Assembly (NCBI GenBank): GCA_030613705.1 | Contig: JAUWLJ010000009.1 | Span: 1-16,202, forward strand | DNA: 16,202 bases | Origin: Chloroflexota bacterium | Lineage (GTDB): Bacteria; Chloroflexota; Anaerolineae; Anaerolineales; UBA4823 | Direction of reading: 5' to 3' | Shown: positions 926-15,415 of the stretch, piece by piece | Numbering within the stretch: position 1 is the first letter of the stretch | How the letters are laid out: every line of letters starts with the position of its first letter | Notes under the pieces: model-generated | The model's input: the letters and a program-made list of their open reading frames with translations, nothing else | Databases searched by the model: none | Told to the model about the DNA's origin: nothing | Program-made: the position numbers and the translations under genes

Positions 926-1951
926 TTATTCTGAAGGTGCTTTGCGAGTGGGCCAATTGCTGTTTAAGGTTAGAGCATACTCAATAGCATTAATGAGACT
1001 TTTAGGATCGGCTTTTCCCTTCCCTGCGATATCGAATGCAGTTCCGTGATCAACAGAGGTACGGATGATTGGTAAACCAAGAGTAATGTTTACTCCACCC
1101 CAGAAATCGATGATTTTCGCTGCGATATGGCCTTGATCATGATATTGTGCAATGACAGCATCAAACTCTTTGCCTTCCCACATGCGAACAAAAACAGTAT
1201 CTCCTGGGACAGGATACGAGCATACATTAAAACCTTCCGCGATCGCCTCATCAATGGCTGGCTGAATAATATCAATTTCTTCCCGACCAAAGACTCCTCC
1301 CTCACTGCTATGAGGATTAAGCCCCGCAACAGCTAGCTTTTGCTCACTAATTCCCATGTGTAGAAGACCTTCATGTGTAAGTTGGATAACCTTAATCAAT
1401 CGTTCTCGAGTGCAGCGATCAATCGCGTCTCTAAGTGACAGGTGTGTGCTGACATGTGTCACTCTGAAATGTTGAGAGGCCAACATCATTGTCACATCTG
1501 CTGTTTTTGTACGTTTGGCAAGAAGCTCTGTATGGCCATCAAATTTATGTCCAGCTAGATGTAAAGCTTTTTTATTTATAGGGGAGGTCACAACTGCGTC
1601 GATTTTTCCCTCCATCGCGAGGTCAATTGCTTGGATAATATATTCGTAGGCAGCATTTCCCGCAATCTCTTGAACCGTTCCCCATCGCAATTTATCCAGG
1701 TCGACATTCTTAAGATCAAGAATTGGCAAAATCCCAGGCTCAAAGTGTGCTTCATCAATTGATTTTATCGGAATTGCCTTAATATCGACATCAACGATAT
1801 CAATAGCCCGGCACATTACAGCATAATCGCCAATACACACCAGTCGAACTGGTTTATGCTTTTCGGTTGCAGCAGCCATAGCAATAATTTCAGGTCCGCA
1901 CCCAGCCGGATCACCCATGGTGATTGCGAGTAGTGCCTTGTTATTCTGCAT
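926..1951 (-). CDS. pdxA2: PdxA2-type four-carbon acid-sugar 4-phosphate dehydrogenase
   Basis: NAD-dependent dehydrogenase of the PdxA family, 341 residues. PdxA2 members oxidise D-threonate (or D-erythronate) 4-phosphate at C3, and the product loses CO2 to give dihydroxyacetone phosphate. Numbering from the TTG at 1966, the family motifs are MGDPAGCGPEI (17-27), TSPINKKAL (127-135), GHTELLA (144-150), AGLNPHSSEGG (214-224), the metal-binding YHDQGH (275-280) and GLPIIRTSVDHGTAFD (297-312). The open frame reaches the TTG at 1966, but the bases just after that TTG form AAGGAG, exactly six bases before an ATG at 1951, so 1951 is the real start. It lies 44 bases downstream of the DUF1537 kinase. 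That pairing is the signature of the acid-sugar pathway and argues against PdxA of pyridoxal phosphate synthesis. The substrate epimer cannot be read from the sequence. Confidence 0.93.
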   Translation of the reverse strand: MQNNKALLAITMGDPAGCGPEIIAMAAATEKHKPVRLVCIGDYAVMCRAIDIVDVDIKAIPIKSIDEAHFEPGILPILDLKNVDLDKLRWGTVQEIAGNAAYEYIIQAIDLAMEGKIDAVVTSPINKKALHLAGHKFDGHTELLAKRTKTADVTMMLASQHFRVTHVSTHLSLRDAIDRCTRERLIKVIQLTHEGLLHMGISEQKLAVAGLNPHSSEGGVFGREEIDIIQPAIDEAIAEGFNVCSYPVPGDTVFVRMWEGKEFDAVIAQYHDQGHIAAKIIDFWGGVNITLGLPIIRTSVDHGTAFDIAGKGKADPKSLINAIEYALTLNSNWPTRKAPSE

Positions 1952-1957
1952 ATTAGG

Positions 1958-1963
1958 CTCCTT
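1958..1963 (-). promoter_or_regulatory. Ribosome binding site fixing the pdxA2 start
   Basis: AAGGAG on the minus strand, six bases before the ATG at 1951. It lies inside the longer open frame that begins with TTG at 1966, so the longer start would place the ribosome site within its own coding sequence. Confidence 0.7.
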
Positions 1964-1995
1964 CAAACACTCTTACTTTAAGAAGACGGTTGTAA

Positions 1996-3165
1996 TTAAT
2001 TAAATGAATTTGTCAAAATCTCTGGTGTGCCGAATCCTCCAGCTTTTGTGAGAATCGGTAAATTCTCTCCTATGCCTCCTTGGAGTGTCCCAAATGGAAA
2101 ACCAGGCACAATTTCACCATGGATATTGATCGTCTCTGATGACAATACTCTTAGTAGGGAGCTTGCCGTATCTCCTCCACAGACAACAAGAGCATTAATG
2201 GGGTAAGTCTCAATGATGGATTTTGTGATTGTTGCCAAACCATTTTGTATAGCTGATTTTTCCTTATTTGAAAGAACATCTTCTATTGGAGACCGAATAA
2301 GGATTGATTTATTTTGCAACTCTTTCAGCTTCGGCATTTTACTAACGTGATTGTTAAATTCTGGTGCATTTGTTGTTACTACTATTTCAATAATGTCTTG
2401 TGAATTTATCAGAACTCGTAATTGTTCGTGAGTTCTTGGATGATGACTTCCAGAGACAAAGAGAACGGGGTGTCTCATACTAGTCCTCAATTTTTTATTA
2501 TTGGGTTCGCGGTTTGTCAACACAGCAATCCAAGCACGTGCTAAAGCAAATGCGCCACAAGGTAGGATGTTGGTGGAGATGATCGCTTCAGCAATATGAA
2601 CAAGATCGGTTCCTGATGTAACGGAAGGAACCAGTATGTGTTCTTTTGAAAACTGAAGTCTGGTTCGAAGGTTTGTTTTACCAGATCGCACAACTGATAG
2701 AGGGATGCCGGCGATATCTCCATGGAAACGATCTTGGATTCGGGATGTGTGGGCAGGCCAGGTAGGATCATGTGCAAACGCGGTCTTATGTAATGGTTGT
2801 TCATCTATCCAAAGTTGTGCCTCAAGAACCATACGACCTTGTTCTATTACAGCAGGACATATAATTGCTTTTTGGAAACTACTCGCATTAAGAATTGTCG
2901 TAATCTCAGCATCAAGATGTCCTCGTAAGGTCGAGTCAATTTTCTTGAATAATAATCTCCCTCGTAGAGATGAAACAGCATCGAACATACGCTTGCGCGC
3001 CAAGTCAACCGATGTTTCTCTCGAGTCAGTGTTTATTATTTCAACTTCTTGAGATGGAATGTTTCGATTGTCTAGTCTTAATACAGTTTTCAATCCATAT
3101 TTTGCAAACTGAACACCAGTGTCCATAGCGCCAGTTAAATCATCAGCAATGACACCGATCTTCAT
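1996..3165 (-). CDS. dtnK: Four-carbon acid-sugar kinase (DUF1537, DtnK/OtnK type)
   Basis: ATP-dependent cytosolic kinase of the DUF1537 family, 389 residues, slightly short of the usual 400-430. Known members phosphorylate D-threonate, D-erythronate or L-threonate/2-keto acids at C4. The N-terminal substrate domain shows ADDLTGA (7-13), NTDSRE (45-50) and KKIDSTLRGH (74-83). The C-terminal nucleotide domain begins near VLFVSGSHHPRTHEQL (234-249) and carries GGDTASS (330-336) and KAGGFG (374-379). The ATG at 3165 has GAGGT nine bases upstream. It is the first gene of the leftward operon, about 150 bases downstream of a predicted promoter, and its product would be the substrate of the adjacent PdxA2-like enzyme. 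Family certain; D-threonate versus D-erythronate specificity not resolvable, so the symbol is provisional. Confidence 0.92.
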   Translation of the reverse strand: MKIGVIADDLTGAMDTGVQFAKYGLKTVLRLDNRNIPSQEVEIINTDSRETSVDLARKRMFDAVSSLRGRLLFKKIDSTLRGHLDAEITTILNASSFQKAIICPAVIEQGRMVLEAQLWIDEQPLHKTAFAHDPTWPAHTSRIQDRFHGDIAGIPLSVVRSGKTNLRTRLQFSKEHILVPSVTSGTDLVHIAEAIISTNILPCGAFALARAWIAVLTNREPNNKKLRTSMRHPVLFVSGSHHPRTHEQLRVLINSQDIIEIVVTTNAPEFNNHVSKMPKLKELQNKSILIRSPIEDVLSNKEKSAIQNGLATITKSIIETYPINALVVCGGDTASSLLRVLSSETINIHGEIVPGFPFGTLQGGIGENLPILTKAGGFGTPEILTNSFN

Positions 3166-3321
3166 AAGACAGTAACCTCAATATTTGGAGAATTAATTGC
3201 TTGTATTTTATTCTAATCCCAATAATTTACCAGCGTATATCATGCCCATCCATCAGCAATGGTTTAGAGTGAACACTTACGATGGTCTGTCAGTATTTGT
3301 TAATAAAAAGGTAGTGTCTGC

Positions 3322-3350
3322 ATTATAGCGTTATAAATGAGCGCAGTCAA
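3322..3350 (-). promoter_or_regulatory. Sigma70-like promoter for the kinase-pdxA2-DinB operon
   Basis: Reading the minus strand, TTGACT (3350-3345), a 17-base spacer and a perfect TATAAT (3327-3322) form a near-consensus housekeeping promoter. Transcription would start near 3316 and leave about 150 bases of leader before the kinase ATG. A GCAAT box abuts the -35 element at 3351-3355, a position where a bound repressor would block polymerase. Confidence 0.72.
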
Positions 3351-3459
3351 GCAATAATGTGCAATTTCTTCCATTTCCTACTTGATTTATTGCGTCTTAT
3401 ATGCTATTATACGAGCATTAATGCGCAATTATCGCCTCAAATCACCGCATTCCAGCAAT
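3351..3459. promoter_or_regulatory. Cluster of GCAAT boxes, candidate DeoR operators
   Basis: GCAAT occurs on the plus strand at 3351, 3361, 3425 and 3455 and inverted (ATTGC) at 3389. Two more lie in the kinase leader, at 3256 and inverted at 3196. Seven copies in 385 bases is far above the roughly one expected by chance at this base composition. The pair at 3351/3361 is a direct repeat with a ten-base period (one helical turn) lying between the two divergent -35 elements. The inverted copy at 3389 is inside the plus-strand promoter spacer, and the copy at 3425 is just past its start site. The wider consensus is roughly CAAGCAATTAAT. Binding by the adjacent DeoR-family protein is inferred. 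Confidence 0.55.
3382..3410 (+). promoter_or_regulatory. Extended -10 promoter for the DeoR gene and downstream genes
   Basis: TTGATT (3382-3387), a 17-base spacer and TATTAT (3405-3410), preceded by the extended -10 TG at 3402-3403. Transcription would begin near 3417, leaving about 134 bases of leader before the ATG at 3551. It faces the leftward promoter with 31 bases between the two -35 elements, so one bound repressor could control both. Confidence 0.65.
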
Positions 3460-3550
3460 CTATAGGTATTTGCACACTAGAAAGTGCTACTTTTACTTAA
3501 CTCACAAAAACGCCAATTTCATGTACCTCCAACAATCGTGAGATGAAAAT

Positions 3551-4327
3551 ATGAGTTCTCAGATTCGGCAACAGCAACTTATTGAGATCCTGAAAGAAGA
3601 CCCTGCAGTTCAGGTATCCGACCTAGCTACACATTTTAAGGTATCTTCATCGACGATACGGCGTGATTTAAATAAGCTAGAAGACGTTGGATTGGTACGT
3701 CGTGTACACGGGGGTGCTCTTTCAAAAACTAATTTTGTAACTGAACCACCTTTCGAGGTGCGAAAAGTAACCCACCAAGCAGAAAAATCTGAGGTTGGTA
3801 AAGCTGCAGCCTCTATCATTGATGACGGATTAACAATATTTATTGATGGCGGCACTACAACTCCTTTTATTGTTCCACATCTTAATGGTCTAAATGATCT
3901 AACAGTTGTGACAATCGGATTAAATGTAGCTTATAAACTAGCCTCCCTTCAAACTGTTCGGATAATCCAGATAGGTGGAGAATTACATCGGGAGACCTGG
4001 GTGTATGCTGGTCCACTTTCAATACAGGCGTTAGAGAATTGTGGATTGACTTTTGATTTGGCGTTCATCAGCGCAGTGGGTGTATCAGCAAAATACGGGG
4101 CAACAAACCAGATTCTCGACCGCATCCCCCAGAAGCAAAAAGCCATAGATCTTTCTCGGAAGGTGGTTGTAGTATGCGACGGCTCTAAAATTGGTCAAGT
4201 AGCCTCAGCCCGAATTATTCCAATGAGTGCTGTTGATATTCTTGTTACAGACCAGACTGCTCCACAACCTGAGTTAGATGAAATAGCTAAGCTAGGACCA
4301 GAGATTATGCTAGCGAATCAGGATTAG
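3551..4327 (+). CDS. DeoR-family transcriptional repressor
   Basis: A 258-residue regulator of the DeoR/GlpR family. The N-terminal winged helix spans about residues 5-57: R-x3-L-x2-L, then VSDLATHFKVSSSTIRRDL and GLVRRVHGGA. The C-terminal sensor domain has the sugar-phosphate isomerase-like fold, with IDGGTTT (98-104), IGGELH, FDLAFISAVGVS and a DGSKIG motif near the end. Family members usually repress nearby sugar-catabolic operons and are released by a phosphorylated intermediate. Here the intermediate could be an acid-sugar 4-phosphate or dihydroxyacetone phosphate; that is inference. The SD sequence is weak. It sits between the leftward kinase operon and the rightward dehydrogenase/transporter genes, next to a dense set of GCAAT boxes, so it probably represses both directions and itself. 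Confidence 0.92.
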   Translation: MSSQIRQQQLIEILKEDPAVQVSDLATHFKVSSSTIRRDLNKLEDVGLVRRVHGGALSKTNFVTEPPFEVRKVTHQAEKSEVGKAAASIIDDGLTIFIDGGTTTPFIVPHLNGLNDLTVVTIGLNVAYKLASLQTVRIIQIGGELHRETWVYAGPLSIQALENCGLTFDLAFISAVGVSAKYGATNQILDRIPQKQKAIDLSRKVVVVCDGSKIGQVASARIIPMSAVDILVTDQTAPQPELDEIAKLGPEIMLANQD

Positions 4328-4381
4328 TTTGATGCTTGGAAGATTTTCAAGTCAATTGATCACAGGAGTAAAACGAATCTA

Positions 4382-5539
4382 ATGAACAGAATAGCACCCC
4401 TCCGAATTCCACAGGAATTATATTTCGGAGAAGGCAGTGCAGAGGCAATGGGGAAATTTGCCAAGAATCTTGGTTCTGGTTCCGTTTTCCTCATAAGTGA
4501 CAAAGGATTGAATTCTGTCGGTATAGTGGATCAAGCAAAAACTTGGCTTCAAGAATCTGGATTTGATGTTGAAGTATATCTTGATGTCGAACCTGAACCA
4601 TCTACTTCAAATGTAGGAACTTGTTTTTCTGAGGCTCAACAAGTTGCTCCCAACGTAGTTGTTGGTCTAGGTGGAGGTAGCGTTCTGGACACTGCAAAAA
4701 CAGTTGCTATGTTGATTACTAATGAGGGTCGGGTTGAAGATTACTTGGGGACTGATCTGGTTAAACGTCGTGGTGTACCGACAATTCTATTGCCGACAAC
4801 CTCTGGTACAGGTGCGGAGATCACTCCAAATGCTCTCTTTTATGTTCCAGAGTTACGTGTCAAAAAAGCTATTGTTAGTGAACACATTATTCCCAATCTT
4901 GTCATTGTTGATCCCGTACTTACGTTGAGCGCCCCACCAGGCCTCACAGCAGCCACGGGCATGGATGCACTTTGTCACGCAATTGAATCCTTCACTGGAT
5001 TAAATGCAACGCCATTAACCGAGCCTCTCTCAAGAGAAGCAGCCAAGCAAATTGGTAATCATCTGCGTACAGCTGTCTATTTTGGAAATAATTTAAATGC
5101 ACGTACTGGAATGGCTTTAGGGAGCCTGTATGCAGCAATTGCCATAGCAAACTCTGGCACTAATGCAGTGCATGCTCTTGCCTATCCTTTACAAGGTCTG
5201 AATCGCGTTCAACACGGTGTCGCCAATTCATTGTTGCTGCCATATGTGATGTCTTTCAATCTGTTAGGGGACCTCAAAAAGTTTTCCGAAGTCGCCGAGC
5301 TGTTAGGAGTGCCAACTACACATCTTAGTGTACGTTCAGGAGCGGAAGCTGCTGTTGGAGCATGCAAAGAGTTATCAAAAGATATAGGCATACCCCAAAA
5401 TATGAGTGAAGTGGGTGTTCATGAAGAGCAACTTGAAGATCTTATCGATGGAGCGCTAGATGTTCAGCGTCTCTTGAAGAATAACCCTCGTCCGATAACT
5501 CGCAAAGACATCAGGGATATCTACAATGAAGCGATGTAA
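4382..5539 (+). CDS. Iron-containing (group III) alcohol dehydrogenase
   Basis: A 385-residue NAD(P)-dependent dehydrogenase of the Fe-ADH family (FucO, maleylacetate reductase and relatives). The nucleotide-binding motif GLGGGSVLDTAK is at 95-106 and TTSGTGAE at 139-146. The four metal ligands expected for the family are present: Asp195 and His199 in TGMDALCHAIESF, then His264 and His278. Length is typical. The ATG at 4382 follows an AGGAG with an unusually long 13-base gap, and no better start exists. It lies 54 bases after the DeoR gene, so it is likely in the same transcript. In this setting it could oxidise a hydroxy-acid, or reduce an aldehyde released by the DapA-like lyase, such as glycolaldehyde or a tartronate-type semialdehyde. 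The substrate is unknown. Confidence 0.9.
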   Translation: MNRIAPLRIPQELYFGEGSAEAMGKFAKNLGSGSVFLISDKGLNSVGIVDQAKTWLQESGFDVEVYLDVEPEPSTSNVGTCFSEAQQVAPNVVVGLGGGSVLDTAKTVAMLITNEGRVEDYLGTDLVKRRGVPTILLPTTSGTGAEITPNALFYVPELRVKKAIVSEHIIPNLVIVDPVLTLSAPPGLTAATGMDALCHAIESFTGLNATPLTEPLSREAAKQIGNHLRTAVYFGNNLNARTGMALGSLYAAIAIANSGTNAVHALAYPLQGLNRVQHGVANSLLLPYVMSFNLLGDLKKFSEVAELLGVPTTHLSVRSGAEAAVGACKELSKDIGIPQNMSEVGVHEEQLEDLIDGALDVQRLLKNNPRPITRKDIRDIYNEAM

Positions 5540-5713: not shown

Positions 5714-7393
5714 ATGGAACGCAAAAATAAAATTCGCATAATTGCTCTATTCGCTTTAGTCACATTGCTGCTGTCCCTCGCTGCTTGTGCTCAACCTGCC
5801 ACAGAAGAGCCAGAAATTGAGCAACCTAGCGAGGAGCAGGCTGAACCTGCAGAACCATCCGAAGAAGAAGAGGAGGTAGAGCTGCGAATTGCGGTCGGAG
5901 CCCGGTTCGATGATTTGTCACCATTAAGGGGCGGTGGCCATAGCGCTTTCTGGCTCTCGATGTGGTGGGCAAGCCCGATGTATTACGATAGCGATGGCCA
6001 ACTTCACCCATACGTCTTCAATGAATGGGAAGCAAATGATGATTTCACGGTTTGGACGTTTAAGATTGATCCAAAGGCTGTCTTCTCAGATGGAAGCCCA
6101 ATAACAGCTGGCGATGTCAAAGCGACATGGGATCTAAGCGCGGTTCCCACGACAAAACATCAGCGTGTAGGCCTATTCTTCACAGGCGTCGAAGGTTACG
6201 ATGCGGTGATCAACAGTGAAGCTATGCAGATGAGCGGTATTGCTGCTGTTGATGACAACACTATTGAAGTCACACTCACAGCTCCTGATCCTGTCTTTTA
6301 CAAACGGATGGCCACGAACTTAATCCCGCCAGTGAAAGCATCTCAAGCTGTTGGACCTGACGGAAAAGAGGTCTTTGAATGGTGGCGCCCTGAAAACGGT
6401 GTGGTCGTCAGTGGTCCCTTTATGCCCGTATCGATGGACCTAGACAAGAGTGAAGCAGTGTTCGTGAAGAATCCCAACTTTTGGATGGGTGAGCCGAAGA
6501 TCGATAAGGTCACTTTAATCGCCGTGGAAGATGCTCAAACAGCTATTACGCTTTTCCAGAGCGGTGAACTAGATGCTATGAACGAAATCTTCACACCAAC
6601 CCTTGTGGAGGAAATGGGAGAGGAATTTGTCTCTGGACCAATGATTCCACGCGGGCATCAATTTTGGCTTGATGGGAGCAAAGAACCGACAAACGACATC
6701 AATGTACGGAAAGCATTGATCATGTCTGTAGATCCAGACATGGTTTTTGAAGCAGCTTTCCCCAATGGTCCAGGTCAATCCGTGACTCAACTTTTGGTCG
6801 CGGTTGAAGGTGTTGATCCGGAATATGTGTGGTATGTACCTGACGCGGGCGCTGCTCAAGATGCTTTGGCGGCTTCAAGCTATGAAAACGCGGAGAACCT
6901 TCCGAAGCTATACTTTGTCGGCATTAGCCAGGCATCACACGAACTCGCAGCACAATATATCGCAGAAGTATGGCGGCAAACCCTCGGTATTGAGGAAGTT
7001 GAAATGAAGGCCGCTTTTGACGAATACTCTGGCCCAGATCAGGATCGGGTCCAGATCTTCCGTGATGATGCTGGCGCCAGATTCCCGGATCCAGTTGTTT
7101 ACCTTATGGGCACGATCCACTCATCCAGCGGTCCTGCGCAGCGGAAAATGGGTGGCTATAACAATCCCGAGGTTGATAGGCTACTTGAAGAAGCAGCAAC
7201 GAAGGGTGCGGATGATCCAGACCGCATCGCGCTGGCGCAACAAGCGCATGAGCTATTCCTCGAGGACTACATGTTTGTCCCTTACTACTTCCAGAACATG
7301 CCTCGATATGCTATGCCTTGGGTGACGAATTGGTCAAAGAATTCGGATTGGCAGGTTGTGGAACCCTGGAACGTCGTTATTGAACCGCACTAA
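5714..7393 (+). CDS. ABC importer solute-binding lipoprotein, family 5 (peptide/nickel type)
   Basis: A 559-residue extracytoplasmic binding protein of the SBP_bac_5 family. The signal peptide has basic residues 3-8, a hydrophobic core (9-21) and the lipobox LAAC, with Cys25 as the lipidated residue. An acidic Glu/Pro linker follows to about residue 56, a style common in Chloroflexota lipoproteins. The family signature is clear: FTVWTFKIDPKAVFSDG and PITAGDVKATWDL at about 111-141. Length is normal for the family. GGAGG eight bases upstream of the ATG is a strong ribosome site, and a 13-base-pair hairpin just after the stop may stabilise its message. It heads a complete five-gene importer. 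Family 5 proteins bind peptides but also sugars, opines and sugar acids. Because this one sits beside acid-sugar genes, a sugar-acid ligand is a reasonable guess. Confidence 0.93.
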   Translation: MERKNKIRIIALFALVTLLLSLAACAQPATEEPEIEQPSEEQAEPAEPSEEEEEVELRIAVGARFDDLSPLRGGGHSAFWLSMWWASPMYYDSDGQLHPYVFNEWEANDDFTVWTFKIDPKAVFSDGSPITAGDVKATWDLSAVPTTKHQRVGLFFTGVEGYDAVINSEAMQMSGIAAVDDNTIEVTLTAPDPVFYKRMATNLIPPVKASQAVGPDGKEVFEWWRPENGVVVSGPFMPVSMDLDKSEAVFVKNPNFWMGEPKIDKVTLIAVEDAQTAITLFQSGELDAMNEIFTPTLVEEMGEEFVSGPMIPRGHQFWLDGSKEPTNDINVRKALIMSVDPDMVFEAAFPNGPGQSVTQLLVAVEGVDPEYVWYVPDAGAAQDALAASSYENAENLPKLYFVGISQASHELAAQYIAEVWRQTLGIEEVEMKAAFDEYSGPDQDRVQIFRDDAGARFPDPVVYLMGTIHSSSGPAQRKMGGYNNPEVDRLLEEAATKGADDPDRIALAQQAHELFLEDYMFVPYYFQNMPRYAMPWVTNWSKNSDWQVVEPWNVVIEPH

Positions 7394-7410
7394 ACACAAC
7401 CGTTCATCAG

Positions 7411-7445: not shown

Positions 7446-7560
7446 TACTTGTTAACACATCCTTGTAAAATTATCCTAAGCAGGGTTTAATCATTTCAGG
7501 ACATTGGAATACAAATGGTGTAGAAAATTTGGTTCAAGCATAGGAGGGATTCTTGTCCAC

Positions 7561-7565
7561 GGGAG
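7561..7565 (+). promoter_or_regulatory. Ribosome binding site deciding the first permease start
   Basis: GGGAG lies seven bases before the ATG at 7573. A second SD-like AGGAGGG at 7542-7548 has no in-frame start codon at a proper distance. Confidence 0.5.
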
Positions 7566-7572
7566 TTCCAGC

Positions 7573-8535
7573 ATGGGACGTTATTTGATTGGCCGATTTA
7601 TAAAATGGGTACCATCCGCAGTCATCGTATTGTTTCTTGTATACGCATTGGCATTTTACGGTGCTGGTGATCCCATCAAATTAATCTTCCTCCGCGCTCC
7701 GGGAGACGTGGTATGGAGCCCAGAGCAAATTGAAGCTTTACGAGAGGAAGCAGGATTAGACCGACCATTTCTCATCCAATTTGGTGATTACTTCTGGCAT
7801 TTGCTACAAGGAAACTTGGGGAACTCTATCATTTCGAATAGACCGGTCATCGACATCATCTCAGCAGCAGCGCCGATTTCCATTCAAATTGGATTAGCTG
7901 CAACAGCAATTATGGCTATTATTGGTATCCCTCTCGGTGTCCTTGCTGGTCTTTACCAAAATTCCTGGCTGGACAATGTAACTGTGGGTTTTGCGCTCTT
8001 CGTTTGGGCTATTCCTGTCTATGTTGCAGGACCCTTACTTCTGGTTCTCTTGGTGCTTGTATTGAAAATCATGCAAGTGCCGTATGGTTGGGATGGTCTT
8101 TTTAGCACGAAGGCAATCATACCAGTAGTTGTTTTGGCACTGGCTCCGCTAGCCCTCGTAATTCGCCAAACTCGAGTAGCCGTCATCGATGTTATATCCG
8201 AAGATTATATTCGAACTGCATATGCCAAGGGAATCCCTCAGTATGTTGTAGTTTATCGACACATTCTACGACCAGTTCTTACACCCGTTATTACCACTCT
8301 TGGACTCATCATGATCACCATGATCAATGGCGCGATCCTGGTGGAAACTGTATTTGGAATACCTGGTCTTGGATATTTGACTGTAAACAGTATTATCGAA
8401 GTCGATTATCCCGTGATCTTAGCCATAACACTCATTGGAACCTTCCTGGTTATGGCATCAAATCTATTGGTCGATCTCGTGTATCCTATCTTGGACCCGA
8501 GAGCCGCGAAGGCAGAGGTGGAGGAGGTAGGATGA
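7573..8535 (+). CDS. ABC importer permease, DppB/OppB type
   Basis: Inner-membrane permease of the binding-protein-dependent family, 320 residues from the chosen start. The frame is open back to a TTG at 7504. The ATG at 7573 is preferred because GGGAG sits seven bases upstream and because the protein then begins MGRYLIGRFIKW, as DppB/OppB proteins do, with the first helix at about 12-32. About six membrane helices are visible. The cytoplasmic EAA loop that docks the ATPases is EDYIRTAYAKG at 210-220, and VETVFGIPGLGYL (258-270) and the terminal LDPR are family landmarks. The last four bases overlap the second permease (ATGA at 8532-8535), so the two are translationally coupled. It would form the heterodimeric channel with that protein. 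Confidence 0.92.
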   Translation: MGRYLIGRFIKWVPSAVIVLFLVYALAFYGAGDPIKLIFLRAPGDVVWSPEQIEALREEAGLDRPFLIQFGDYFWHLLQGNLGNSIISNRPVIDIISAAAPISIQIGLAATAIMAIIGIPLGVLAGLYQNSWLDNVTVGFALFVWAIPVYVAGPLLLVLLVLVLKIMQVPYGWDGLFSTKAIIPVVVLALAPLALVIRQTRVAVIDVISEDYIRTAYAKGIPQYVVVYRHILRPVLTPVITTLGLIMITMINGAILVETVFGIPGLGYLTVNSIIEVDYPVILAITLIGTFLVMASNLLVDLVYPILDPRAAKAEVEEVG

Positions 8536-9506
8536 GTTCATCACCGCAAGCATTTAACGAAGTTCTCCCAGAAGGTCTTGAAGGGCATGAACCGACAAGC
8601 CTTTGGCGAGATGCCTTCGATCGCCTGAAAGCTAATAAGCTTGCTGTATTCGGGTTCATCATTGTTGTCGTTCTCTTACTGGTCGCAATCTTGGGTCCAT
8701 TTATCACACCATACGATTTCTTATCGCAAGACCTATCACAACGTAACCAATCATCTTCAGCTGCTCACCTACTCGGTACAGATGATCTTGGGCGTGATGT
8801 TCTTAGCCGGGTTATATACGGTGCCCGCACTGCTACGATTGTCGCCTTCTCGGTCACTGCGGTCAGTCTTCTTATAGGTGTCAGTCTTGGTGCCATTGCC
8901 GGGTATAGTGGAGGCAGGGTGGATTCAGCCATAGTATGGATCATCGATTTAACCATGTCGATTCCAATCCTATTGTTGGCGGTCGTAATCAATGTTTCAT
9001 TGAAAACCCCGGTCACCTATTGGATGGACGACATGTATCTCAAGACCCATAATCCTATCTACAGAGAAACGATTTGGGTGGATTTTGCGCTAGTCTTTGG
9101 TGCCCTCGCATTAATCATGTGGCCTCCTTACGCAAGACTCATTCGTGGCCAGATCCTCAGCATTCGCAATGAAAACTATGTCCTTGCTGCAAGAGCGCTC
9201 GGATTTTCAAATCGTAGGATCCTATTCCGGCACATACTTCCTAATGGACTTGGACCGGTGATTGTACTTGCGAGTGCAGGTCTAGGCCAAGCGATGATTC
9301 TTGAATCAGCATTTAGCTTTCTCGGAATAGGAGTACGGCCTCCTATACCTAGTTGGGGAAATATGATCTCGGATGGGCTGCGTGTATGGCGAAATTACCC
9401 CCACCTGTTGGCAGCACCGGCGGTTGTATTGGGAATCATCACCGTCGCATTTAGTTTTCTAGGTGATGGTCTTAATGATGCGCTCAATCCGAAAGGATGG
9501 CGGTAA
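8532..9506 (+). CDS. ABC importer permease, DppC/OppC type
   Basis: The second channel subunit, 324 residues. A cytoplasmic N-terminal segment leads to helix 1 at about 38-58, followed by LLGTDDLGRDVLSRVIYGAR (80-99), a hallmark of DppC proteins. The EAA loop is NYVLAARALGF (215-225), followed by ESAFSFLGIGV (258-268) and the closing GDGLNDALNPK. GGAGG lies just before the ATG, inside the first permease gene. One feature looks unusual: the loop between the third and fourth helices (about residues 154-184, containing YWMDDMYLKTHNP) is some 30 residues longer than I would expect for DppC, and would face the binding protein. A 124-base gap separates it from the next gene; that gap holds only weak short inverted repeats. 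Confidence 0.92.
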   Translation: MSSSPQAFNEVLPEGLEGHEPTSLWRDAFDRLKANKLAVFGFIIVVVLLLVAILGPFITPYDFLSQDLSQRNQSSSAAHLLGTDDLGRDVLSRVIYGARTATIVAFSVTAVSLLIGVSLGAIAGYSGGRVDSAIVWIIDLTMSIPILLLAVVINVSLKTPVTYWMDDMYLKTHNPIYRETIWVDFALVFGALALIMWPPYARLIRGQILSIRNENYVLAARALGFSNRRILFRHILPNGLGPVIVLASAGLGQAMILESAFSFLGIGVRPPIPSWGNMISDGLRVWRNYPHLLAAPAVVLGIITVAFSFLGDGLNDALNPKGWR

Positions 9507-9630: not shown

Positions 9631-10626
9631 ATGAAGCTGCTCTTGGATGTAATGGACTTGAAGATCCGCTTCCGCGTCCGAAAAGGTCACATCTACGCAG
9701 TTAATGGTGTCTCGTTTCAAGTCCATAAAGAAGAGACTCTTGGGATTGTTGGTGAAAGTGGATGCGGGAAATCGGTCACCATGTTAAGTTTGTTAGACCT
9801 GTTGCCTCATTCGGCGGAGATTGAAAGTGGAACAATCCTATTCAAGGGAAATGACCTACGCAAACTTAAATCAAGAGAGCTCCAAAAGATTCGGGGTGCG
9901 GAGATTGGGATGATCTTCCAAGATCCTATGACATCACTTAATCCTGTCCTTAATATTGGCACCCAGATATCCGAACCCTTAATTTATCACAAAGGGATGA
10001 GCAAGAAGGATGCCTTCGTCCGCTCTGGTGAACTAATGGAAATGGTTAGGATCCCAGATGGTAAATCGCGCATAGAAGATTACCCATATCAGCTTTCCGG
10101 TGGGATGCGCCAGCGGGTCTTAATCGCTATGGCGATTGCATGCAACCCTGACCTCATCATTGCAGATGAGCCCACGACTGCACTGGATGTGACCATACAA
10201 TCGCAGATCATAGCTCTTGTGAAGGATTTGAAGAAAAAGTTGGGAACTTCCATCATCTGGATCACACACGATTTGGGCGTAATCGCAGGTTTAGCCGATC
10301 GAGTGGCTGTGATTTACGCTGGATATATCGTTGAACAAGCCAAAGTAGATGATATCTACGATAATCCCCGCCACCCATACACACTGGGGTTAATTAAGGC
10401 AGTCCCAAGCGTTAAAGACTCTGGTGACCGACGGCTTGAGACGATAGGAGGTGTACCTCCCGATCTTACAATCCGACCTGATTATTGTCCATTTCTCCCC
10501 CGTTGCTCTTATGCTTTCGATAGGTGCCGATTAGAGAATCCACCCCTATCAAAGACACTTGAAAACGTGGAGACGGAACACTATTTTGCGTGTTGGTTTG
10601 ATGTCCGCAAAGGTAAACCCCGATGA
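9631..10626 (+). CDS. ABC importer ATPase, DppD/OppD type
   Basis: ATP-hydrolysing subunit, 331 residues, one of the two that power the importer. Walker A is GESGCGKS (41-48), Q-loop FQDP with Gln97, signature LSGGMRQR (155-162), Walker B IIADEP (176-181) and switch His213. The C-terminal oligopeptide/dipeptide extension follows, with Cys286, Cys292, Cys299 and Cys321, the four-Cys pattern linked in some relatives to an iron-sulfur cluster. The start ATG has AGGA ten bases upstream. Its stop codon overlaps the start of the next ATPase (ATGA at 10623-10626). All catalytic motifs are intact. Confidence 0.94.
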   Translation: MKLLLDVMDLKIRFRVRKGHIYAVNGVSFQVHKEETLGIVGESGCGKSVTMLSLLDLLPHSAEIESGTILFKGNDLRKLKSRELQKIRGAEIGMIFQDPMTSLNPVLNIGTQISEPLIYHKGMSKKDAFVRSGELMEMVRIPDGKSRIEDYPYQLSGGMRQRVLIAMAIACNPDLIIADEPTTALDVTIQSQIIALVKDLKKKLGTSIIWITHDLGVIAGLADRVAVIYAGYIVEQAKVDDIYDNPRHPYTLGLIKAVPSVKDSGDRRLETIGGVPPDLTIRPDYCPFLPRCSYAFDRCRLENPPLSKTLENVETEHYFACWFDVRKGKPR

Positions 10627-11609
10627 AACGGGATCCAAATGCAACACTTATTAAAGTGAGATCTCTTACCAAGCATTTCCCCGTTCGATTGGGTGCTTAC
10701 GGTCAACATAAGGCGACTGTTTACGCGTTGGATGATGTATCCTTCAACATTTTTCGGGGAGAAACGCTCGGTCTGGTAGGAGAGTCGGGCTGTGGAAAAA
10801 CCACCGTCGGTTTATCGATTTTACAACTCCATCGACCCTCGAGAGGGGAGGTATGGTATGAGGAAATAGATCTGACTAAATTGAAAGAAGCGGATTTACG
10901 GCCTTTGCGACAGAAATTACAAATTGTCTTCCAGGACCCATATTCAACATTGAATCCACGAATGACAGTTGGTGCGGCCATCGCCGAACCGATGAGCGTA
11001 CATAGGCGATGTGAGAAGCAACAAATCCAAGAACGGGTTGAAAGACTTATGGATGATACCGGTCTTCCTATGCGCTATGGAAATCGCTACCCTCACGAAT
11101 TTTCTGGAGGCCAAAGACAGCGAATTTGCATCGCGAGAGCATTGGCTTGTGACCCGGAATTCATCGTTTGCGACGAGCCAGTTTCTGCCCTCGATGTCTC
11201 TATCCAAGCTCAGATATCTAACCTGCTAAAGGACTTGCAGGAAAAATATAATCTGACATATCTCTTTATCGCACATGACCTCGCGGTCGTCAAGTACATA
11301 AGTAGTCGTATTGCAGTGATGTATTTGGGAAAATTAGCAGAACTTGCACCAAGGGATATGCTTTTTGAGCACCCGCTCCACCCATATACGCAGGCACTCC
11401 TCTCTGCTGTTCCCGTGCCAAACCCAAAGGAGGAACGGAGTCGTCAACAAGCCCTGTTGGAGGGGGACGTACCCAGTTCAATTTCGCCTCCAAAAGGTTG
11501 TCGCTTTCATCCCCGGTGCCCGCTTGCCTTTGAGCCATGCAGTGATGCCGTCCCTGATTGGCGTGAGGTTGATAACAACCATTGGATTGCGTGCCATGCT
11601 GTGAAGTAA
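10623..11609 (+). CDS. ABC importer ATPase, DppF/OppF type
   Basis: The second ATPase of the importer, 328 residues. Walker A is GESGCGKT (53-60), Gln104 lies in VFQDP, the signature is SGGQRQR (161-167), Walker B IVCDEP (181-186) and the switch residue is His218. The C-terminal extension carries Cys293, Cys299, Cys306 and Cys324. The start overlaps the preceding stop by four bases, so translation is coupled. With the lipoprotein, the two permeases and DppD-like subunit it completes the importer; none of the five is broken. The stop at 11607-11609 forms part of a tandem repeat that leads into the spacer before the lyase gene. Confidence 0.94.
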   Translation: MKRDPNATLIKVRSLTKHFPVRLGAYGQHKATVYALDDVSFNIFRGETLGLVGESGCGKTTVGLSILQLHRPSRGEVWYEEIDLTKLKEADLRPLRQKLQIVFQDPYSTLNPRMTVGAAIAEPMSVHRRCEKQQIQERVERLMDDTGLPMRYGNRYPHEFSGGQRQRICIARALACDPEFIVCDEPVSALDVSIQAQISNLLKDLQEKYNLTYLFIAHDLAVVKYISSRIAVMYLGKLAELAPRDMLFEHPLHPYTQALLSAVPVPNPKEERSRQQALLEGDVPSSISPPKGCRFHPRCPLAFEPCSDAVPDWREVDNNHWIACHAVK

Positions 11610-11640: not shown

Positions 11641-11733
11641 ATTTAAATGTGGACTATTCCACCTGAGTTTGCATCATGCACGATAGTCGTTTGCCCCAAC
11701 AAATCTCATATATAACAGAAAGGAAGAATGAAA

Positions 11734-12684
11734 ATGTCCAGAAAAGGAATGTCCCCCCAAGAAGCCAAACCGTTTATGACGGGTGTATTCAATATTCAAT
11801 TCACCCCCATGAAGTCAGAGTCAGAGATTGATGAGTCAGCTTTGCGTGAACACACGAACTACATCATCGATGGTGGGCTCGTGAAAGGAAAGGGCGCCAC
11901 GGTAATTGGTGGTTCAAATGGTGAAGGATTTTCACTATCAGATAAAGAATATCGTCAATTAATCGACGTTGTTTTGGAGACTGCTGATGGACGTGTTCCT
12001 GTTGTTGTTGGTTGTGTAAGACCTGGTACACAACCAGTTATAGATCTAGCCAAATACGCTGAGCAAGCTGGAGCTGATGCGGTCATGGTACTCGCGCCAC
12101 ATTACTATCCTGTACCTTCACACGAGTACGTCGTAGATCACTTTAGAGCTTTAGCTGACTCCACGAATATTGGAATCGTGATTTACAACAACCCTGTAGT
12201 GACAGGCTTAGATATACCAGTTGATTTACTGGAACGCTTAGCGGAGATTGACAACATTATCGGATTGAAAGAGACCACTTCCAATATGTATAGACTCCGC
12301 CAAGTTCTTTACCGTTTTAAAGATCGCTTTGCAATAAATTCCAACACGTACCGCTGGATGATGCCACTCGATTACCAGCTCGGTTGTAAGGGGTTTAATA
12401 CTTATTTTGGCAATGCTGACCCTGCGTTCGCTGTCAGAATGCATGAAGCAGGCTTGAGTGGTGATTTTGAGACATGTAATAAGCTCTGGATTGACATGCT
12501 TGACCTTTACAACTTTTGCTTTGGGCATGGCGACATGTACAGGGCGACATCCCTTGGTAAAGAGATGGTGCGTATTGCTGGCGTCTCTATGGGCGATTAT
12601 GAGCGCTTGCCATTAAAACGTCCGAGCAAAGAAGATCGTGAACACTTGCGTAGCCTGATGAGACAAGCAAAAGTGGCCTTGTAG
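11734..12684 (+). CDS. DapA-family Schiff-base lyase/aldolase
   Basis: Class I aldolase-type enzyme of the DHDPS/NAL family, about 316 residues, a TIM barrel. Numbering from the upstream ATG at 11728, the pyruvate or keto-acid carboxylate motif is GGSNGEGFSL (61-70), the proton-relay Tyr153 is in IYNNP, and the Schiff-base Lys181 is in IIGLKET. The start at 11734 is preferred because AGGA (11721-11724) lies nine bases before it but only three before the ATG at 11728. Many relatives cleave 2-keto-3-deoxy sugar acids to pyruvate plus an aldehyde, or dehydrate them. The setting here, beside acid-sugar genes and an FAH-family enzyme, favours such a catabolic role over lysine synthesis. The long C-terminus (FGHGDMYRATSLGKEMVRI) fits the catabolic branch. 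The substrate is not identifiable. Confidence 0.88.
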   Translation: MSRKGMSPQEAKPFMTGVFNIQFTPMKSESEIDESALREHTNYIIDGGLVKGKGATVIGGSNGEGFSLSDKEYRQLIDVVLETADGRVPVVVGCVRPGTQPVIDLAKYAEQAGADAVMVLAPHYYPVPSHEYVVDHFRALADSTNIGIVIYNNPVVTGLDIPVDLLERLAEIDNIIGLKETTSNMYRLRQVLYRFKDRFAINSNTYRWMMPLDYQLGCKGFNTYFGNADPAFAVRMHEAGLSGDFETCNKLWIDMLDLYNFCFGHGDMYRATSLGKEMVRIAGVSMGDYERLPLKRPSKEDREHLRSLMRQAKVAL

Positions 12685-12721
12685 CACTTTACCAGAATAT
12701 TGAAATTTTTGTCCAATGTAG

Positions 12722-12778: not shown

Positions 12779-12830
12779 GGTTTTAAAAACTGCAATTCTG
12801 CGGTTGCTCATTTCTTTTTTAGCTAGTTGC

Positions 12831-12836
12831 AAGGAG
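12831..12836 (+). promoter_or_regulatory. Ribosome binding site supporting a TTG start
   Basis: AAGGAG five bases before a TTG at 12842. The longer frame (TTG at 12827) would contain this site, and the first ATG (12854) is 17 bases away. Confidence 0.6.
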
Positions 12837-12841
12837 CTCGC

Positions 12842-13795
12842 TTGAAAAACGTAATGGGTTCTCAAGCAATACTGATCGCACTAGCATCACATACCGGATT
12901 TGGTCTATATGTTGTTATGTCAAAAGATCTGTTCAAGCACTTTCCACCTTTTGGGCTTTTGGCTTGCGCGTTCGGTTGTGCGCTCCTGACTGGAGCATGG
13001 ATTTTTAGGAAAGACTTCGAATGGAAAGATGTCCTGCGAGTTAGCGTTTGGAGTGTTGCTGGTATTGCAATCTTACGCTCCCTTACAAAAATGCTAGCAA
13101 TTCAGTACACATTGGCAGTGCACGTTCAGCTCTTGGGTCTATCAATACCATTTATCAGTGCGATACTCGCCCGGATATTTCTTCGTGAAAAGATGCCTCG
13201 AGGAACAATACCAGCTCTGATAGCAACAACATTGGGTGCATACTTTGTCATAACTATCAACCCCTTAAAACCTGATTTGATAATCAGATATGTTGATCTG
13301 ACCGGTCTTGCGTTGGCGTTGGTATCATCTATCTTGATGGCAATTCTGGTGGTGATAACCAGTTTTTCAACGCAAGTACAATCGAATCCGGTAAATGTTT
13401 ATTTACAGCAAACCACTGCCTTGACTGTTACATATTTATCTCTTTCAATCTTTACAAAGGAGTCTTGGGCACCTTTTTTACATCTTAATTTTTCCTATCT
13501 TGGTTACCTTCTAGTTTTTTTTGCTATCGTGTTTATAGCCGGAGGGCTGACTGTCTCTGCTATTTCAAAAGTAAATACAACGATTTTTTCATCACTTCTC
13601 AGTTTACGCCTAGTGGTTGTCTTAGTGGCAGGTTGGTTTATTCTGGGTGAACAATTAACATCTGTATATCAATATTCCGGAGCAGCACTTATTATCGTTG
13701 CGATTACTTGGTACCTGTGGCGACAGAATATTTCTAACGAAAACCAATCTGAGAGGAAAATGCAAGATTTTACGATTGATGGTTCCAGGAGGTGA
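12842..13795 (+). CDS. EamA/DMT-superfamily transporter
   Basis: Integral membrane protein of about 317 residues with ten predicted helices in two EamA repeats. The first repeat ends in a FLREKMPRGTIPALIATTLG segment and the second in WFILGEQLTSVYQYSGAALI; both are typical of the family (helix, then an LGE or REK turn, then a glycine-rich helix). Members export or import amino acids, nucleosides and other metabolites; the direction and cargo cannot be read here. The TTG at 12842 is chosen on its AAGGAG ribosome site. The gene begins a unit after a terminator and ends three bases before the short-chain dehydrogenase, inside whose ribosome site its stop codon lies. It could be a second uptake route for the same nutrient, or an exporter of a side product. 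Confidence 0.85.
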   Translation: MKNVMGSQAILIALASHTGFGLYVVMSKDLFKHFPPFGLLACAFGCALLTGAWIFRKDFEWKDVLRVSVWSVAGIAILRSLTKMLAIQYTLAVHVQLLGLSIPFISAILARIFLREKMPRGTIPALIATTLGAYFVITINPLKPDLIIRYVDLTGLALALVSSILMAILVVITSFSTQVQSNPVNVYLQQTTALTVTYLSLSIFTKESWAPFLHLNFSYLGYLLVFFAIVFIAGGLTVSAISKVNTTIFSSLLSLRLVVVLVAGWFILGEQLTSVYQYSGAALIIVAITWYLWRQNISNENQSERKMQDFTIDGSRR

Positions 13796-13796
13796 T
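13787..13796 (+). promoter_or_regulatory. Full-length Shine-Dalgarno overlapping an upstream stop
   Basis: AGGAGGTGAT is a complete match to the 16S anti-SD tail. It lies six bases (from GGAGG) before the ATG at 13799 and contains the TGA of the transporter gene (13793-13795), so the two genes are tightly coupled. Confidence 0.75.
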
Positions 13797-13798
13797 TT

Positions 13799-14566
13799 AT
13801 GTATACATTAGAACGCTGGACTGGTCGGGTTGCATTAATTACAGGTGCGTCAAGTGGAATTGGGAGAGCTGTCGCCAAAAAACTCGCTGAGGCGGGTATG
13901 CGTATTGCCATCTGTTCTCGTCGCAAAGAGCAGTTGGAACAGTTAGTTAATCAATTAGATATTGACCCAACTTCTGTATTAGTGCTCCCTGTGGATCTTC
14001 GATTCCCAAAAGAAATCAAAGAGGTATTTAATCAAGTAAATGCGATATGGGGTGGTGTTGATGTCTTGGTAAATAATGCTGGTGTAGGCTATAAAACTCC
14101 TGTATACCAAGGCAATCTTGATCTATGGCGAGAGATGGTAGATGTCAACATTCTTGCTTTGTGTCACTGTACATATGAAGCCATGACTAATATGCGGAAG
14201 CGGGAGGACAATGGACACATTATTCTCATTTCATCTCTTGGAGCTTATCGGCACAAACCCGGTTCAATTGGAAATGGTATGTATGTCGCTACAAAACGGG
14301 CAGTTCGCTCGTTGACCGAATCAATCCGAATGGAGCTCCGCAGCTTAGGTAGTAATATAAGAATCTCTGCGATCAGCCCTGGGTTGGTTGAGACGGAGTT
14401 TGCTGAGCGTTTCTTACAAAATGCTGAGGCCGCTAGTGATCTTTATCAAAAAACACAGACTTTAAATCCGTCAGACATCGCAGAGATAGTTGGTTTTATT
14501 CTTTCCTGCCCTCAACATGTCCAACCGCATGATGTAATTGTGCGTCCTACAAGGCAATTAAGCTAA
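13799..14566 (+). CDS. Short-chain dehydrogenase/reductase, YdfG-like
   Basis: A 255-residue classical SDR with a Rossmann fold, cytosolic. The cofactor loop is TGASSGIG (15-22), and Ser40-Arg41-Arg42 after the second strand suggests NADP preference. NNAG is at 92-95. The catalytic set is Ser145/Ser146, Tyr162 and Lys166 (YVATK). The C-terminal tail HDVIVRPTRQ is characteristic of the YdfG/DHRS11-like branch, whose bacterial members oxidise 3-hydroxy acids such as L-allo-threonine, serine and 3-hydroxypropionate. It is tightly coupled to the transporter gene and 81 bases before the FAH-family gene. A plausible role is oxidising a hydroxy-acid to a keto-acid that the FAH-family enzyme or the lyase would then cleave; that role is inferred. 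Confidence 0.9.
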   Translation: MYTLERWTGRVALITGASSGIGRAVAKKLAEAGMRIAICSRRKEQLEQLVNQLDIDPTSVLVLPVDLRFPKEIKEVFNQVNAIWGGVDVLVNNAGVGYKTPVYQGNLDLWREMVDVNILALCHCTYEAMTNMRKREDNGHIILISSLGAYRHKPGSIGNGMYVATKRAVRSLTESIRMELRSLGSNIRISAISPGLVETEFAERFLQNAEAASDLYQKTQTLNPSDIAEIVGFILSCPQHVQPHDVIVRPTRQLS

Positions 14567-14647
14567 CAACAGGGCAAACTAATCTGGATATGGAAAATAG
14601 CTACGATGAAGTTCATAGTCTTAGCAAATTTGAAAAGGAGATAAAAA

Positions 14648-15415
14648 ATGGAAATATGTACATACGCTTCTAAGGATGGTCCACAACAAGGCTTGATTGA
14701 AGATGGCAGTGTATATCATCTACATGGTGAACTATACACTGGTGATATTGTGCGAGGTGAGTTTGTAGATAGCATTGATGTGCTGCAGTTGCTGCCACCT
14801 GTTCTGCCATCAAAAATATTATGCATTGGTCGCAACTATGTTGCTCATGCAGCAGAATTTGGCAATGAACCCCCCACTGAACCCATTCTATTTTTCAAGC
14901 CACCTAGTTCCTTAATAGGCCACCAACAGTCCATTGAGCTTTTGCCTGAAAACGGACATGTGGATCATGAAGCTGAGCTGGCAGTCATCATCGGGAGGGA
15001 AGGACGTTTCATTTCTGAAGATGAAGCTTTCAACCATATACTCGGCTACACATGTGCCAATGATGTCAGTGATCGGGATTTCCAGAAACATGATAAGCAG
15101 TGGACACGGGCGAAAGGATTTGACACATTTTGTTCTTTAGGGCCCTGGCTGACCACAGATTTGGATATCTCTGAACTAGGTATCCGATGCCGTGTAAATG
15201 GAGAGTTGAAACAAAATTCTCACACGAGCCTTATGGTTTTTAAAGTTCATTATTTGATTGCGTATATATCCCGGATTATGACTCTTAATCCTGGTGATCT
15301 AATCCTAACCGGCACACCAGCAGGGGTGAGTCCAATTAATCCAGGTGATGAAGTAGAGGTTGAGATAGAGGGTATTGGGATCCTTAGAAACTCAGTAGTT
15401 CTGAGCTCTAATTAA
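14648..15415 (+). CDS. Fumarylacetoacetate-hydrolase-family enzyme
   Basis: A 255-residue cytosolic metal-dependent enzyme of the FAH family, which breaks C-C bonds in 2,4-diketo acids (fumarylpyruvate, acylpyruvates, 2,4-diketo-3-deoxy sugar acids) or decarboxylates oxaloacetate. Visible landmarks are CIGRNYVAHAAEFG (59-72, with His67), the metal ligands Glu108 and Glu110 in HEAELAVIIG and Asp139 in ANDVSDRD, Lys156 in RAKGFDT and the TGTPAGV loop (221-227). Length fits the short YcgM/HpcE-like branch, with a small N-terminal domain. AAGGAG seven bases before the ATG is a strong ribosome site. As the last gene of the unit, it suggests that the pathway passes through a diketo acid. The family cannot separate hydrolase from decarboxylase by sequence alone. 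Confidence 0.92.
   Translation: MEICTYASKDGPQQGLIEDGSVYHLHGELYTGDIVRGEFVDSIDVLQLLPPVLPSKILCIGRNYVAHAAEFGNEPPTEPILFFKPPSSLIGHQQSIELLPENGHVDHEAELAVIIGREGRFISEDEAFNHILGYTCANDVSDRDFQKHDKQWTRAKGFDTFCSLGPWLTTDLDISELGIRCRVNGELKQNSHTSLMVFKVHYLIAYISRIMTLNPGDLILTGTPAGVSPINPGDEVEVEIEGIGILRNSVVLSSN

Follow-up and report, generated by a model that had tools for sequence, protein, structure and literature searches.

A Chloroflexota-type locus that may import and split an acidic sugar and feed a four-carbon acid to a DUF1537 kinase/PdxA2 pair

Introduction

What is a kinase and dehydrogenase pair for four-carbon (C4) acids doing beside a complete ABC importer and a lyase? This question is raised by a contig of 16,202 bases assigned by binning to an uncultured Chloroflexota bacterium (JAUWLJ010000009.1; contig G000:C202 of a source genome that is 58% complete), which is taken whole and called the window below. 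In the window, genes for a DUF1537 kinase and a PdxA2-type dehydrogenase adjoin those for an Opp-type importer with an SBP_bac_5 (SBP5) binding protein, an iron-containing alcohol dehydrogenase (Fe-ADH), a Schiff-base lyase of the dihydrodipicolinate synthase (DHDPS) family, an EamA transporter, a short-chain dehydrogenase/reductase (SDR) and an FAH-family enzyme. In the DUF1537 kinase/PdxA2 pathway, a C4 acid kinase and a dehydrogenase act in sequence to end in dihydroxyacetone phosphate (DHAP), and the window likewise has both enzymes. Zhang et al. (2016) reportedly described such pathways for D-threonate and D-erythronate; the basic pathway includes, to our knowledge, neither an aldolase nor an Fe-ADH nor an Opp importer.

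Most likely, the locus serves the uptake of an acidic sugar, its cleavage and the catabolism of the fragments. An initial annotation had proposed cleavage of a larger acid to supply the kinase with a C4 acid, and we retain this as the best reading. The whole route that we favour, to which we give a probability of about one half, consists of import of a 2-keto-3-deoxy acid, aldol cleavage, reduction by Fe-ADH to D-threonate, and conversion by the kinase and PdxA2 to DHAP.

Results

Recurrence of the gene set in other bacteria

The genes named in the initial annotation were all found as open reading frames in place, at one locus and above the Pfam gathering cut-offs (Table 1). The two minus-strand genes of the pair are separated by a 385-base gap from eleven plus-strand genes, which run from the DeoR-family regulator (start 3551) to the FAH-family gene (end 15415). 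Because the intergenic gaps among these eleven are shorter than 180 bases, a single plus-strand operon is plausible.

Matches to the SBP5 protein were found in 131 of 72,556 plasmid records, all from Rhizobiales. When pRL9 proteins were used as queries, each of the 12 Rhizobiales plasmid loci that were opened showed matches to one set of eleven genes in a constant order, with PdxA, Fe-ADH, a sialidase-like BNR gene and DHDPS on one side and SBP5, OppB, OppC, OppD, OppF, DUF1537 kinase and GntR on the other; several of the matches at one locus (L131) were partial. The BNR gene, used as bait, gave 304 records, and in seven of the 10 loci opened DHDPS, Fe-ADH, PdxA, kinase and BNR occurred together (S. 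meliloti, with a partial lyase match, Agrobacterium, Azospirillum, Aminobacter, Caballeronia, Paracoccus and Martelella). The Pantoea ananatis locus had no kinase, and the core was not found at the Pantoea agglomerans and Streptomyces loci. The BNR protein itself matched Pfam BNR_2 with 222 bits, whereas the PDB gave it weak matches over part of its length (best E 3e-4); the rhamnogalacturonan-II enzyme 5mqr was rejected as a relative, an E value of 0.2 being no evidence.

As a control, four plasmid kinase loci were chosen from a kinase search regardless of SBP5 or BNR. PdxA was present in all four, and DHDPS with Fe-ADH in one, that of Pantoea vagans, in which DHDPS and Fe-ADH are divergent from kinase, PdxA and DeoR as in the window. 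The one E. coli locus opened had its genes in two groups, the first with SLC13, YhcH, sialidase, TerC, DHDPS and Fe-ADH and the second with dtnK, PdxA2 and DeoR, and this stretch (L146 1143-8828) was matched in 1044 of 5426 complete genomes, in 1043 of them over at least 80%. The E. coli YhcH passed the cut-off of its broad family (95 against 45.5 bits) but not that of N-acetylneuraminate anomerase (90 against 160). Transporters at the core clusters swapped between Opp types and SSS.

The set of kinase, PdxA, Fe-ADH and DHDPS lyase is not a chance neighbourhood, because it recurs in other bacteria, and in the window these four enzymes lie with a transporter within about 15 kb. The co-occurrence search across genomes that had been proposed in the initial annotation showed the four-enzyme set recurring with swapped transporters. 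The claim of that annotation that the two arms of the locus belong together is supported by their recurrence in 12/12 Rhizobiales loci, 7/10 BNR-bait loci, P. vagans and E. coli. We give about even odds to the view that the window represents the Chloroflexota-type form of a catabolic gene cluster found in several phyla with exchangeable transporters.

Some plasmid loci showed further arrangements. In Caballeronia, a single protein of 768 amino acids (L137 6037-8343) fuses the DUF1537 kinase and PdxA, and the Pantoea ananatis locus (L134 12719-19417) adjoins an L-ascorbate (ula) gene set. In Rubrobacter (L145 4868-11528), the kinase and PdxA are accompanied by lactate utilisation genes and by a gene for a protein with a lactate-racemase domain; in Haladaptatus (L143 6668-10651), they are accompanied by DUF362 and cupin genes, and FAH and aldehyde dehydrogenase genes are nearby.

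Chloroflexota relatives and the host

Three observations weigh against the favoured route. The window enzymes showed just 21-45% identity with those of the proteobacterial sets in pairwise comparison; for Rhizobiales the values were 44% for PdxA, 37-39% for Fe-ADH, 25% for the kinase and 23-26% for the lyase. Among 35 Chloroflexota kinase loci (stretches of 3-19 kb, several of them cut by contig ends), PdxA2 accompanied the kinase in 29, and matches to Fe-ADH, DHDPS or SBP5 were found in none of the 35. The initial annotation had held that its reading would be refuted if related genomes carried the pair without the other genes and the lyase arm elsewhere; this is the pattern within Chloroflexota, but it fails across phyla. 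Lastly, the composition of the contig is foreign to its bin. The tetranucleotide correlation between the two was 0.633, compared with 0.931-0.948 for four sampled bin contigs of at least 9 kb and at least 0.772 for all 19 readable contigs of the 20 sampled; the GC content was 0.441 for the contig and 0.499 for the sampled bin. The contig is likely misbinned or recently acquired; the host is therefore uncertain, and statements about it are weak.

These data bear on a second explanation, in which the locus holds two adjacent but separate functions, a pair scavenging D-threonate or D-erythronate and an unrelated operon for a 2-keto-3-deoxy sugar acid (importer, lyase, SDR and FAH). The pair was indeed seen without the lyase arm in the 29 Chloroflexota loci and in three of the four control loci, and lyases of the window clade were seen without the pair on two contigs of 6.2 and 8.0 kb: L009 (131-6200), where the lyase adjoins genes for 2-hydroxyacid dehydrogenases, GH38 and an enolase-superfamily protein, and L010, where it is accompanied by GntR, SBP5, a pair of permeases and a double FAH protein. 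The families are, however, linked too often for coincidence in Rhizobiales, Azospirillum, Caballeronia, Paracoccus, P. vagans and E. coli, and we regard two separate functions as a real but minor possibility.

Within the order, the kinase was found in six of 201 genomes (source genome included; four of the six matches were weak or partial), within the class in 25 of 396 at 1e-50, and within the phylum in 12 of 400 at 1e-70; the same-genus genome G175 gave no kinase match. At 1e-50, the lyase clade was represented in five of the 396 genomes of the class, in two cases by distant members; in two orders it was found in one of four and one of 25 genomes, and A3 was matched in one of two. The phylum search with SBP5, in which only three candidates per genome were scored where several existed, recovered the source genome alone (1/400) and says little. 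Two lyase loci came from a search of genome contigs and two distant kinase loci from one of viral contigs. Other Opp-type genes adjoined the pair at one of the 35 Chloroflexota kinase loci (L051), and an FAH gene was present at two (L073 and L116). At L116 (9092-11132), the kinase adjoins an FAH gene 51% identical to that of the window, and PdxA2 was unmatched in the 19 kb stretch.

Nearer relatives than these loci are metagenome proteins, which were compared by the exact lengths of their contigs, with the best 120 of 2121 kinases and the best 120 of 399 SBP5 proteins listed. Shared lengths of at least 5 kb numbered six for kinase and SBP5 (0.2 expected by chance) and three for SBP5 and lyase (0.16 expected), an excess that counts for the favoured route; shorter matches, on which the sources disagree, were left out of the count. 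One metagenome contig of 20839 bases fits kinase P0012, lyase P0130 and SBP5 P0234.

Lyase, Fe-ADH and accessory enzymes

The lyase had the catalytic Lys and Tyr of DHDPS-superfamily Schiff-base lyases in a TIM barrel, and its Schiff-base residue, Lys181, was invariant in 35 of 35 aligned sequences. Its predicted structure (pLDDT 91.7) suggested a fold like those of DHDPS, NAL and KDG-type sugar-acid enzymes. Identity to its relatives was 43-80% and then, after about a hundred sequences, at most 35%, which marks the boundary of its clade. Val158 stands where the aligned DHDPS (3hij) has an Arg, which is presumably the aldehyde-binding residue of DHDPS. Val158 was also considered as a marker of the clusters as a whole and rejected, other cluster lyases having Arg at this position. 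For the Fe-ADH, the best NCBIfam model was lactaldehyde reductase (298 bits, below the cut-off).

The SDR, FAH and EamA genes are variable accessory genes whose families recur at other clusters. FAH and SDR genes adjoin the core in Azospirillum (the SDR there being 35% identical to that of the window over 246 residues), SDR genes occur at the Caballeronia and Pantoea clusters, and an EamA gene at that of Paracoccus; none of the three was beside the core in the 12 Rhizobiales loci. Given this variability, the view of the initial annotation that they are members of the pathway is not supported in that form, although their families recur.

These enzymes could also be taken as alternative ends of a non-phosphorylating fuconate- or rhamnonate-like pathway, formed by the lyase, SDR and FAH, with the Fe-ADH as the lactaldehyde reductase that its best model names. 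We take LRA6 of the rhamnose pathway to be an FAH-family protein. According to PMC11199699, routes 1 and 3 for L-fucose and L-rhamnose resemble the window in their aldolase, SDR and FAH-type steps, route 1 having an aldolase and route 3 an SDR and a FucG/LRA6-type hydrolase, but they end in lactaldehyde or lactate, besides pyruvate, and have no C4 kinase. The FAH protein did match the diketo-deoxyrhamnonate hydrolase 8gsr (162 bits); it was nearer, however, to HpcE-like proteins (3rr6, 240 bits; HpcE 1gtt, 232 bits) and reached only 181 of the 500 bits of the NCBIfam didehydro-deoxyrhamnonate hydrolase cut-off. The best PDB match of the SDR was human ARPG836 (183 bits); the best 60 of its 662 PDB matches did not include an entry named L-2-keto-3-deoxyfuconate dehydrogenase, which excludes nothing. 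For both the SDR and the FAH protein, the matches to enzymes of route 3 were at the level of the family. Since this pathway would also leave the C4 kinase unused and the window has no fuconate or rhamnonate dehydratase, we consider it improbable.

More broadly, dehydratase families had no match among the 16 window proteins scanned, and enolase-superfamily genes were found at two places elsewhere in the bin, outside the window. The lack of a sugar-acid dehydratase had been pointed out in the initial annotation; it was confirmed for the window, but such an enzyme is not needed when the substrate enters the cell as a 2-keto-3-deoxy acid.

The kinase and PdxA2 pair

The best-founded part of the favoured route is its lower half, in which a tetronate, most likely D-threonate, would be phosphorylated and converted to DHAP. 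The kinase belongs to its family, both DUF1537 domains exceeding the Pfam cut-offs (25 bits for SBD_N and 28 bits for NBD_C). D-threonate kinase (DtnK, NF047819) was the best of three NCBIfam models for it, with 207 bits against a cut-off of 450, and 3-oxo-tetronate kinase was second, with 101 bits against 350. By sequence, the dehydrogenase appears nearer to PdxA2 than to biosynthetic PdxA: its top PDB match was Salmonella PdxA2 (2hi1, 285 bits), with D-threonate 4-phosphate dehydrogenase (6e85) at 275 bits, biosynthetic PdxA (1r8k) at 211 bits and other PdxA structures lower. It passed the broad TIGR00557 pdxA cut-off (353 against 290 bits), as did the P. vagans and E. coli enzymes, but its 326 bits with NF002891, D-threonate 4-phosphate dehydrogenase, fell below the cut-off of 583. 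The assignment to D-threonate is based on family knowledge and on curated models that are passed in relatives and not in the window; kinase and dehydrogenase scored 520 and 658 bits in P. vagans and 533 and 682 bits in E. coli, against cut-offs of 450 and 583.

A role of the pair in pyridoxal phosphate synthesis or 4-hydroxythreonine repair, as suggested for E. coli in PMC12928451, appears very improbable to us. Excerpts of two papers lend it some weight, the DUF1537 protein STM0162 being reported to phosphorylate 4-hydroxythreonine (PMC10971088) and PdxA2 to be able to perform the PdxA step (PMC9997740). The latter excerpt, however, puts PdxA2 in organic acid catabolism, the pair is nearest to D-threonate models and structures, and the importer, lyase and Fe-ADH have no role in such a route.

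The importer

The importer proteins were overall about 48-68% identical to their Rhizobiales plasmid homologues, the SBP5 protein showing 49-50% (Rhizobium and Pleomorphomonas), the permeases 61% and 64%, and the ATPases 50-54% and 64%. The SBP5 protein lacks the Asp of Opp/Dpp peptide-binding proteins: its Arg456, nearly invariant in 24 relatives, aligns with OppA Asp419, which we take to be the residue anchoring the peptide amino group. Arg at this position makes a peptide an unlikely ligand and favours an acid. Fold comparison gave no choice among peptide, opine and sialic-acid binders, the sialic-acid binder 5za4 being among the matches. Although the family names, Opp/Dpp importer and DHDPS, would suit a peptide transporter beside a lysine-synthesis DapA, this explanation is hardly credible, in view of Arg456, the absence of a peptidase from the window, and a lyase that scored 148 bits against the NCBIfam dapA cut-off of 206 and has Val158 for Arg.

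Regulatory and flanking features

The DeoR-family gene, which was absent from the list of the initial annotation, sits between the two arms; its NCBIfam scores for AgaR (173 bits) and YgbI (155 bits) were both below cut-off. In the gap beside it, the promoter-like site with the best score in the window (11 of 12) lies at 3350-3322 on the minus strand, towards the kinase, and a second at 3382-3410 on the plus strand, towards DeoR. An imperfect 21-base direct repeat (3335-3355 and 3439-3459, 81%) was also found, though two-copy repeats often arise by chance. The evidence for a divergent promoter is only suggestive, because such sites are no commoner in the window (26) than in shuffled sequences (32.7).

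Table 1. Predicted features of the window, with profile scores
Feature	Position	Strand	Evidence
DinB-superfamily gene	375-842	-	Flanks locus
PdxA2-type dehydrogenase, predicted D-threonate 4-phosphate dehydrogenase	926-1966	-	PF04166, 342 bits
DUF1537 four-carbon acid sugar kinase	1996-3165	-	SBD_N PF07005, 149 bits; NBD_C PF17042, 77 bits
Candidate divergent promoter region common to both arms	3166-3550		Promoter-like sites and direct repeat
DeoR-family regulator	3551-4327	+	PF00455, 142 bits; PF08220, 69 bits
Fe-ADH	4382-5539	+	PF25137, 168 bits; PF00465, 153 bits
SBP_bac_5 solute-binding lipoprotein	5714-7393	+	PF00496, 183 bits
Two OppB/OppC-type permeases	7504-8535, 8532-9506	+	BPD_transp_1 PF00528, 127 and 111 bits
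Two OppD/OppF-type ATPases	9631-10626, 10623-11609	+	ABC_tran PF00005; oligo_HPY PF08352
DHDPS-family Schiff-base lyase	11728-12684	+	PF00701, 171 bits
EamA (DMT) transporter, accessory	12827-13795	+	PF00892, 56 bits
SDR oxidoreductase, accessory	13799-14566	+	adh_short PF00106, 171 bits
FAH-family enzyme, accessory	14648-15415	+	FAA_hydrolase PF01557, 242 bits
ABC ATPase start, unrelated to locus	15861-16202	+	At contig end

Discussion

The steps of the favoured route are read from the gene families, whose presence, order and recurrence are the observed part. The SBP5/Opp importer would take up an acidic 2-keto-3-deoxy sugar, that is an ulosonic or ulosaric acid or perhaps a small conjugate. 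The DHDPS-family enzyme would then split it by a Schiff-base retro-aldol reaction, releasing pyruvate and a C4 acid with an aldehyde group; the latter product may be reduced by the Fe-ADH to a tetronate, most likely D-threonate. From this the kinase would form the 4-phosphate, and PdxA2 would oxidise and decarboxylate it to DHAP. The Fe-ADH would consume one NAD(P)H and PdxA2 would yield one NADH, which would leave the route redox-neutral. The initial annotation had placed an oxidation before the cleavage; none is needed there, and the Fe-ADH more likely reduces the aldehyde after it. DeoR may control both arms from their common 385-base gap, and SDR, FAH and EamA are probably accessory.

The substrate may be narrowed by comparison with sialic acid catabolism, which has the lyase NanA, the anomerase NanQ/YhcH and, in H. 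ducreyi, an SBP5-type importer. It resembles the window in the action of a DHDPS-family lyase on an ulosonic acid, and the E. coli and Pantoea ananatis versions of the cluster resemble it in their YhcH and sialidase-like genes, but its product is a C6 amino sugar and not a C4 acid. The sialidase-like and YhcH genes of other versions suggest as substrate a 3-deoxy-2-ulosonic or -ulosaric acid that forms a ring; by analogy with sialic acid, their products would free a ketosidic acid and open the ring. One such acid is 3-deoxy-D-lyxo-hept-2-ulosaric acid (Dha), a sugar of plant rhamnogalacturonan-II and green-algal walls. Cleavage of Dha between C3 and C4 would give pyruvate and a C4 aldehyde acid with two chiral carbons in D-threo configuration, as deduced from the compound name and not from a computed result, and its reduction would give D-threonate, the substrate of the curated kinase and PdxA2 models. 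That the loci are a dedicated redox-neutral pathway for Dha, served in the Chloroflexota version by SBP5, is a tentative proposal, which we regard as doubtful.

The cluster itself is already in print. The initial annotation had stated that no pathway with this exact set was described; this must be corrected, for PMC12928451 lists the same enzymes, read there as related to pyridoxal phosphate. Region GR 6 of E. coli strain BEN2908 is given in it with CitT-, EbgC/NanQ-, COG4692-, DapA-, Fe-ADH-, OtnK/DtnK-, PdxA2- and YgbI-like genes, and a similar S. meliloti 1021 cluster is mentioned; an excerpt of PMC9125672 associates a D-threonate region with some E. coli. GR 6 shares with the window the DUF1537 kinase, PdxA2, a DeoR-type regulator, Fe-ADH, a DHDPS lyase and the divergent pair, and the S. 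meliloti cluster, as far as that text goes, shares kinase, PdxA2, Fe-ADH and DHDPS-family lyase. Both have a sialidase-like gene, and E. coli also has YhcH, TerC and SLC13; the window, unlike them, has the SBP5/Opp importer, EamA, SDR and FAH, and its enzymes are 27-45% identical to those of E. coli. The Rhizobiales plasmid clusters (pRL9, p42b, pNGR234b and pSM30-1) share with it an importer with PdxA, Fe-ADH, DHDPS and kinase adjoining, but differ in having GntR for DeoR, a BNR gene in addition, a shorter kinase and a lyase from a different group (about 23% identical). What the window appears to add, from sequence comparison, is a version of Chloroflexota type, in which the Opp importer looks orthologous and the lyase belongs to another clade. 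In open-licence PMC text we found no paper that assigns the upper steps of the cluster, and none with both 'heptulosaric' and 'threonate' among the matches listed, in which papers with both terms rank first.

Roughly one in five complete E. coli genomes and many rhizobial plasmids carry the recurring set, which points to a real nutrient, one that we did not see identified in the literature searched. The favoured route would connect the known lower route, in which D-threonate becomes DHAP, with a specific upper one of import, aldol cleavage and reduction, and a small, testable list of substrates follows from it. Should a plant ulosaric acid prove to be the substrate, the pathway would close a gap in the breakdown of pectin side chains and would explain why root bacteria retain these genes.

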